Assembly: GCA_030656555.1 (NCBI GenBank)
Contig: JAUSPN010000049.1
Location: 1 to 64,000 of the forward strand
Length of the DNA stretch: 64,000 nt
Source of the DNA: Candidatus Desulfaltia sp.
GTDB taxonomy: Bacteria; Desulfobacterota; Desulfobacteria; Desulfobacterales; ETH-SRB1
Direction: 5' to 3'
Within the stretch, counting starts at the first letter, position 1, and every line of letters begins with the position of its first letter. Under the pieces are notes generated by a model. It was not told the origin of the DNA. It worked only from the letters and a program-made list of their open reading frames with translations, and ran no database searches. Below, in pieces: positions 48,896 through 51,079 of the stretch. A program made the translations under genes and the position numbers.

Positions 48896-48924
48896 TTGAC
48901 AAACATAATTGGGGTGACTAAATT
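48896..48924 (+). promoter_or_regulatory. Candidate promoter for the HesB-like selenoprotein
   Basis: TTGACA at 48896-48901, a 17-base spacer and TAAATT at 48919-48924. A perfect TATAAT overlaps at 48924-48929 but with a 22-base spacer. Confidence 0.4.
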
Positions 48925-48975
48925 ATAATTTAGTTCGTTAACAAATTTTGATATCATGTTATTAAGGAGGAAGTT

Positions 48976-49290
48976 ATGGTTGAAATTACAAACGCAGCAA
49001 CAACGCAGATTGCTGAATATTTTAAAGGCAGAGATGTATCGCCGATTCGGATTTTTTTAAACGAAGGAGGATGAGGCGGCCCTTCCCTCGCAATGGCTCT
49101 GGATGAGCTAAAAGACAATGATAGTATATATGAGGTTGACGGATTTAAATATATTGTCGATAAAGTGTTTATGGATAAATCAAAACCGATTAAAGTAGAT
49201 TTTAATCAGTTTGGGTTTAAAATAACATCGGGCATAGATTTAGGGGCTACTGGATGTTCCAGTTGTGGCACTACCGGTTCATGTTGCTGA
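48976..49290 (+). CDS. HesB/IscA-like selenoprotein (in-frame UGA = Sec)
   Basis: The ATG at 48976 has AAGGAGG 6 bases upstream. The frame runs 32 codons to TGA (49072-49074) and continues in frame to a stop at 49288-49290, giving 104 codons. The TGA sits in IFLNEGG-(U)-GGPSLAMALDEL, where non-Sec relatives have Cys. The C-terminus is Cys-rich (TGCSSCGTTGSCC), typical of this HesB-like group, which is a reported selenoprotein family in anaerobic bacteria. A candidate SECIS hairpin follows the UGA. The protein probably handles iron-sulfur or sulfur transfer; the exact role is unknown. A downstream ATG (49093) would yield only the C-terminal two-thirds. Confidence 0.88.
49094..49110 (+). promoter_or_regulatory. 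Candidate bacterial SECIS hairpin
   Basis: TGGCTC (49094-49099) pairs with GAGCTA (49105-49110) around the loop TGGAT. The loop has G in its second position and starts 25 bases after the UGA, inside the distance reported for bacterial SECIS elements. One pair is a G-T wobble. Confidence 0.6.
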
Positions 49291-49310
49291 TGATAAAAAA
49301 TATGTTTGAA

Positions 49311-49344
49311 AAAAGGGCATCACCACACGGTGATGCCCTTTTTT
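49311..49344 (+). terminator. Rho-independent terminator after the selenoprotein
   Basis: A 10-bp perfect stem GGGCATCACC / GGTGATGCCC (49315-49324, 49329-49338) with loop ACAC, followed by TTTTTT and preceded by AAAA. Confidence 0.95.
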
Positions 49345-50536: not shown

Positions 50537-51079
50537 ATGACGGATCTTATGGAGGTCATAAAGGAAAGAAGAAGCATTCGCAAGTACGAGGAAAAAGATA
50601 TCTCTGAAGAGCTTGTAAACAGGGTTCTTGATGCTGTCAGGTGGACGCCGTCGTGGGTCAATACACAGAACTGGGAGATTGTCGTTGTAAAAGACAGGAC
50701 AATAAAGGAAAGGCTCCAGTCCACGCTTCCCAAGGGAAATCCTGCCGCAAAGTCCTTTGTGACGGCACCGGTGGTTCTTGCCGTTTGCGGCAGGCTTGGC
50801 AAGTCAGGATATTATAAAGACAAAGTTTCAACAAAATTCGGAGACTGGTATATGTTTGATCTTGGGCTTGCCACACAGAATCTTTGTCTTATGGCCCATC
50901 ATCTTGGCCTTGGAACAGTGATAGTCGGCCTGTTTGATCATGACAGGGCCAAAGAAATATTAAATGTACCGGCAGGCTATGAACTGGTTGTCCTTATACC
51001 GATGGGATATCCAGCCATAACGCCATTGGCTCCAAAACGAAAGGAGATAAAAGAGTTTACGCATTATAATATGTTTTGA
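50537..51079 (+). CDS. Nitroreductase family FMN protein
   Basis: A 180-residue nitroreductase-fold flavoprotein. The N-terminal VIKERRSIRKYEEKDI binds FMN phosphate through Arg residues, and WTPSWVNTQNWEIVVV and LGLGTVIVGLFDH are typical. It reduces nitro or quinone compounds with NAD(P)H, or serves a specialised role; the substrate is unknown. A GGGGGGATT ribosome site precedes the ATG. It converges with the FmdE-family gene. Confidence 0.88.
   Translation: MTDLMEVIKERRSIRKYEEKDISEELVNRVLDAVRWTPSWVNTQNWEIVVVKDRTIKERLQSTLPKGNPAAKSFVTAPVVLAVCGRLGKSGYYKDKVSTKFGDWYMFDLGLATQNLCLMAHHLGLGTVIVGLFDHDRAKEILNVPAGYELVVLIPMGYPAITPLAPKRKEIKEFTHYNMF

Follow-up and report, generated by a model that had tools for sequence, protein, structure and literature searches.

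A HesB-like selenoprotein gene with a conserved recoding hairpin in Candidatus Desulfaltia sp.

The stretch of DNA analysed here, referred to as the window (64,000 nucleotides from Candidatus Desulfaltia sp.), carries at positions 48976-49290 a reading frame interrupted by an in-frame TGA, which raises the question whether this codon terminates a gene or is read as selenocysteine (Sec), and what kind of protein would result. From ATG 48976 the frame proceeds through 32 codons to the TGA at 49072-49074, continues for another 71 codons and stops at the TGA at 49288-49290. A plain ORF call places the start at 49093 and returns a protein of 65 aa (49093-49290). A previous sequence-only reading of the locus had reported a strong Shine-Dalgarno sequence and ATG, the 32 and 71 codons on the two sides of the TGA and a Cys-rich end, and had predicted that gene callers would begin at 49093; all of these were found in the sequence. 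We identified a gene of a known family with a conserved recoding signal, in a genome equipped with the full Sec machinery, and we put at roughly 0.9 the probability that a complete A-type-carrier-like selenoprotein of 104 residues is encoded here. The plain gene call therefore shortens the gene, and the present reading corrects the annotation. The features of the locus are as follows.

48896-48924, plus strand: possible sigma-70-type promoter, TTGACA-17-TAAATT (10 of 12), from a consensus scan.
48964-48970, plus strand: Shine-Dalgarno sequence AAGGAGG, 5 nt before ATG 48976, read from the sequence.
48976-49290, plus strand: hesB-like selenoprotein gene (NF038090 IscA_HesB_Se), 104 residues with Sec33, assigned by NCBIfam score and by 58 UGA and 13 Cys homologues.
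49072-49074, plus strand: UGA for selenocysteine 33, within GG-U-GGPS (motif UxGP); in-frame UGA or TGC/TGT in relatives, in a genome with selA, selB, selC and selD.
49095-49109, plus strand: SECIS hairpin GGCUC-UGGAU-GAGCU, in which 49095-49099 pair with 49105-49109 around the loop UGGAU (49100-49104), whose positions 2 and 3 are G.
49255-49287, plus strand: Cys-rich C-terminal tail CSSCGTTGSCC (C94, C97, C103, C104), loosely aligned to the CGC region of A-type carriers through the match to AQ_1857 and 1nwb.
49315-49344, plus strand: intrinsic terminator, a perfect 10-bp stem GGGCATCACC/GGTGATGCCC with loop ACAC and six T, read from the sequence.

The gene ends with TGA TGA TAA (49288-49296). 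The codon that specifies the last Ser in close relatives is UGA in the present gene, whose product is thus one residue shorter and ends in CC instead of CCS. The second UGA (49291) was considered as a further Sec codon and discarded, because the relatives end in CCS followed by a stop, and the first UGA was taken as the stop. Since the terminator lies downstream and the upstream gene is on the opposite strand, the hesB-like gene is probably transcribed alone as a single-gene unit. The terminator hairpin was absent from the list returned by a pattern scan, probably as the A/T runs were counted into the stem, and the consensus scan for promoters gave 4 sites of this type against 3.4 expected by chance, so that the support for the promoter is weak.

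The assignment to the HesB-like selenoproteins, already proposed from the sequence, was confirmed by profile searches and narrowed to the NCBIfam family NF038090 (IscA_HesB_Se), which matched with 116.3 bits against a cut-off of 85 over positions 1-101 of its 101, covering both sides of the UGA. The related model TIGR01911 (HesB_rel_seleno) gave 34.7 bits, below its cut-off of 66.35. The equivalog models of IscA, SufA and ErpA scored far below their cut-offs (TIGR02011, 30 versus 150.6; TIGR01997, 28.9 versus 136.2; NF010147, 24.2 versus 117), indicating that the protein is not IscA, SufA or ErpA, and the TIGR00049 score was also under its cut-off. A Pfam search of the protein returned no significant family and one sub-threshold match that looked like chance, and a PADLOC run detected nothing. 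The NF038090-type gene is present once in the genome and contains one TGA. Relatives were retrieved from 15 of the 17 family genomes and, in a class-wide search, from 270 of 298 genomes, with exactly one TGA in most of the matches listed; among the nearest named relatives are Candidatus Desulfaltia bathyphila, whose protein is identical to that of another genome of the same genus (G009), and Desulfobacteraceae bacterium Eth-SRB1. HesB-like selenoproteins were catalogued by 2005-2006 (PMC1088965, PMC1794560) and are listed with the motif UxGP in a 2026 review (PMC13188914). The gene is clearly a well-supported further member of this known family.

Because the profile match spans both sides of the UGA and the relatives keep the same frame on both sides, the in-frame UGA is far beyond what chance would produce. 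We compared 71 distinct homologues from related genomes, following the suggestion that relatives might carry Cys at the aligned site, and found UGA in 58 of them and a Cys codon (TGC/TGT) in 13. These counts refer to homologues in which the site was located by the motif G-[U/C]-x-G-P, which requires Sec or Cys and would skip proteins with another residue; one of twenty extra loci (L146) had no match to the motif and was left out of the Sec/Cys reading. The alignment of these sequences strongly favours Sec at codon 33, a reading that we regard as highly probable. It also bears on the simplest alternative, namely that translation truly ends at the UGA and that the locus is either a degraded pseudogene or a gene for a 65-aa protein starting at 49093. 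The mechanical ORF 49093-49290 does exist, but every relative, be it a UGA or a Cys gene, conserves the first 32 residues and is free of frameshifts at the site; moreover, the codons of the hairpin described below are frozen in the UGA genes only. The comparative data already refute termination at this codon, to which we assign a negligible probability.

Bacterial SECIS elements are expected to carry a G at position 2 of the loop. The hairpin pointed out in the sequence-only reading was found as described, its apical loop beginning 25 nt past the UGA with G at position 2. A hairpin just past the UGA whose loop has G as its first or second base, the hallmark used for membership of the HesB-like group, is conserved in 58 of 58 UGA genes. 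In their gap-free alignment the stem columns 24-28 and 34-38 are paired in 290 of 290 cells, while offsets of one to three columns between the two strands, used as a control, left just 4.5-50% paired. One stem pair occurs as G-C, G-U and A-U, the last being a compensatory change on both sides found in 4 sequences; three of the five pairs are invariant, so that covariation proper is slight.

The codons that build the stem are also constrained in the UGA genes. At codon +8, Ala is written GCT in 100% of the UGA genes having Ala, whereas the Cys genes mostly use GCC (64%); at codon +9, Leu is CTG in 100% of the UGA genes having Leu versus 83% in the Cys genes, and at codon +11, Glu is GAG in 100% of those having Glu versus 60%. 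All 58 UGA genes encode Pro, Leu or Ser at residue +12, as compared with 2 of 13 Cys genes (both Pro), in which Lys and Gln dominate; judging from these sequences, the choice of this residue appears to be dictated by the RNA hairpin, as would be expected of a stem requiring two pyrimidines there. A subset with a single gene per family, drawn from 18 families to lessen relatedness, kept CTG..GAG throughout, and the nominal value of 2e-14 for this test, which assumes independence, means only that the pattern is very unlikely by codon bias. The folding energy of the hairpin is unremarkable (z = -0.04) and no Rfam model matches the hairpin region; we accept it as a SECIS element because it is conserved and not because of its folding energy. 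These data add comparative support for the SECIS of the HesB-like selenoprotein family.

The sequence-only reading had named as refuting it a genome without selenocysteine machinery or relatives lacking Cys/Sec at the aligned site, and neither was observed. A search of the genome for the machinery, which that reading had proposed as a check, returned all of its components: selA on contig C38, selB (SelB1) on contig C95, a tRNA-Sec of 98 nt with UCA anticodon and G73 on contig C75, and selD, with an in-frame UGA of its own, on contig C31. G73 has been concluded to be essential for tRNA-Sec (PMC5330540); the tRNA on C75 is canonical. Short matches to the SelB N-terminus (contigs C2, C19 and C91) were rejected as extra SelB proteins and taken for EF-Tu fragments at contig ends, as 400-aa SelB matches were taken for full-length EF-Tu genes; these assignments were made by length, position and control genomes. 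Most weak tRNA-Sec matches were ordinary Ser, Leu, Trp and other tRNAs.

Another tRNA with a UCA anticodon, the second in the genome, is encoded at C31:4034-4125, directly before a second full selB gene (C31:4171-6069), here named selB*; the two form an intact pair (L122:4034-6081, where L122 is contig C31). This tRNA has a U73 discriminator, pairs A1 with U72 and has an irregular T stem. A selC* tRNA-Cys/selB* system has been reported in Desulfobacterales (PMC7609411) and proposed to insert Cys at Sec UGA codons under selenium scarcity (PMC9437257). The pair is present in 5 of the 17 family genomes (G000, G004, G008, G010, G015) and was not found in the remaining family genomes, several of which are more than 90% complete. 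The flanks of selB* on C31 contain no adjacent cysS*; downstream lie a double-cubane-cluster reductase, its activase, YedF, YedE and selD. The reductase and activase were located at L122:6205-10390, and G015 has them in the same order. Immediately before the second tRNA and selB, at L122:34-3000, a formate dehydrogenase alpha gene was observed that apparently has Cys (QARLCHS) at a position occupied by Sec in many such enzymes, as is also the case in G015. In the latter genome (L123:8021-12220) the selC*-selB* pair is duplicated, and one of the selB* copies, broken into frames of 451 and 175 aa, looks decayed or frameshifted. Contig C86 (L131:7250-9538) encodes a CysM-like cysteine synthase fused to a full-length CysRS, which occurs family-wide beside a separate normal CysRS; a role as synthetase for the second tRNA was weighed and rejected, since the fusion is present across the family with or without selB*.

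Such a pair makes it conceivable that UGA33 is decoded as Cys, always or under selenium scarcity, by the second tRNA and SelB*. The pair is intact, its U73, A1:U72, UCA and downstream selB match the published selC*/selB* system (PMC7609411), and the natural Cys homologues show that Cys is tolerated at the site. However, six genomes in which no second pair was found (G009, G014, G016, G001, G002, G006) keep the UGA and the same hairpin, which indicates that SelB1 and tRNA-Sec are enough; SelB* and SelB1 share just 16 of 63 residues in their C-terminal RNA-binding domains; no second CysRS lies beside selB* and the fusion on C86 is independent of its presence. Decoding as Cys is accordingly very unlikely, and since the relatives without the second pair keep the UGA, Sec remains the best reading of the codon. 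It is likewise improbable, though somewhat less so, that UGA33 is ambiguous by design, with Sec inserted in the presence of selenium and Cys, by way of the selC*-like tRNA and SelB*, in its absence. If this were true, one gene would give rise to two chemically different carriers. The present genome and a few relatives with the extra pair, set against close relatives lacking it, would offer a natural comparison for the published, unproven Sec/Cys switch, with this gene as a small and defined target.

Having Sec as the preferred reading of codon 33, we considered the fold and the possible role of the protein. The AlphaFold2 model showed a confident body, with a mean pLDDT of 83.5, and a disordered tail, with pLDDT below 50 for residues 92-104, so that the binding site cannot be drawn. 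Foldseek returned IscA and SufA as top matches (E values of 6e-6 to 2e-5, TM about 0.6-0.7), followed by AQ_1857 and, more weakly, DsrR. A profile search matched 1nwb, IscA and SufA and aligned Sec33 to a conserved Cys of the A-type carriers. With respect to the three ligand Cys residues of these carriers, the central ligand is Sec or Cys in the present family, while the tail CSSC...CC aligns loosely to CGC; among the homologues C94 is invariant and C97 and C103 are nearly so. A part for Sec33 in metal or sulfur chemistry, as suggested from the sequence, would be a reasonable expectation given the IscA fold and the placement of the Cys residues.

On this basis, the ribosome would start at ATG 48976 and, at UGA 49072, the downstream hairpin would recruit SelB with Sec-tRNA-Sec, allowing translation to run on to 49290. 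Sec33 would replace the first cluster- or metal-binding Cys of the A-type carriers, if the IscA fold is as predicted, and the Cys tail (C94, C97, C103, C104) would occupy the place of their CGC. Sec33 and the tail thiolates would then most likely bind a metal, an Fe-S cluster or sulfur/selenium species and pass the load on, in an anaerobic sulfate reducer. A carrier with a selenolate as central ligand is our best inference, and we lean slightly towards a carrier-type function over another role.

The protein might instead be a selenoprotein that is not a carrier, such as a thiol/selenol redox enzyme or a regulatory A-type-like protein of which DsrR, the weaker fold match, is an example. A gene that recurs in the neighbourhood may also point in this direction.

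50537-51079, plus strand: nitroreductase-family gene (Pfam PF00881), a recurrent neighbour.

Nitroreductase relatives with 60-88% identity over the aligned part lie on the same strand, 0.1-1.3 kb downstream of the hesB-like gene, in several families, and this may hint at a redox partner. In addition, mutagenesis and 75Se labelling identified the HesB-like selenoprotein of Methanococcus maripaludis, a protein without clear function whose loss by gene disruption left nitrogen fixation unimpaired (PMC11097638). Nevertheless, Sec33 and, more loosely, the tail Cys residues are placed like the three ligand Cys of A-type proteins, which binding and transfer would fit at least as well, and a non-carrier role is therefore possible but doubtful.

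When compared with known systems, the second tRNA/selB pair resembles the selC*/selB* of Desulfobacterales (Mukai 2017, through the reviews PMC7609411 and PMC9437257) in its U73 and UCA tRNA, the A1:U72 pair and the selB that follows, and differs from it in having no adjacent cysS*; it is located elsewhere in the genome and is not part of the hesB-like gene. The protein shares with IscA, SufA and ErpA the predicted fold, the position of the first-ligand Cys, here Sec, and a C-terminal thiol cluster, whereas its tail is CxxC...CC and not CGC, its gene is outside any isc or suf operon and its scores are under the cut-offs. With the HesB-like family of the literature (TIGR01911; PMC1794560, PMC13188914) it has in common the motif U-G-G-P and hosts that include sulfate reducers and syntrophs, while the TIGR01911 score places it in a neighbouring subfamily. 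It differs in nothing essential from NF038090 IscA_HesB_Se apart from the CC end, CCS in close relatives, and agrees with it in the full-length score above the cut-off, the Sec at the family site and the Cys-rich tail.
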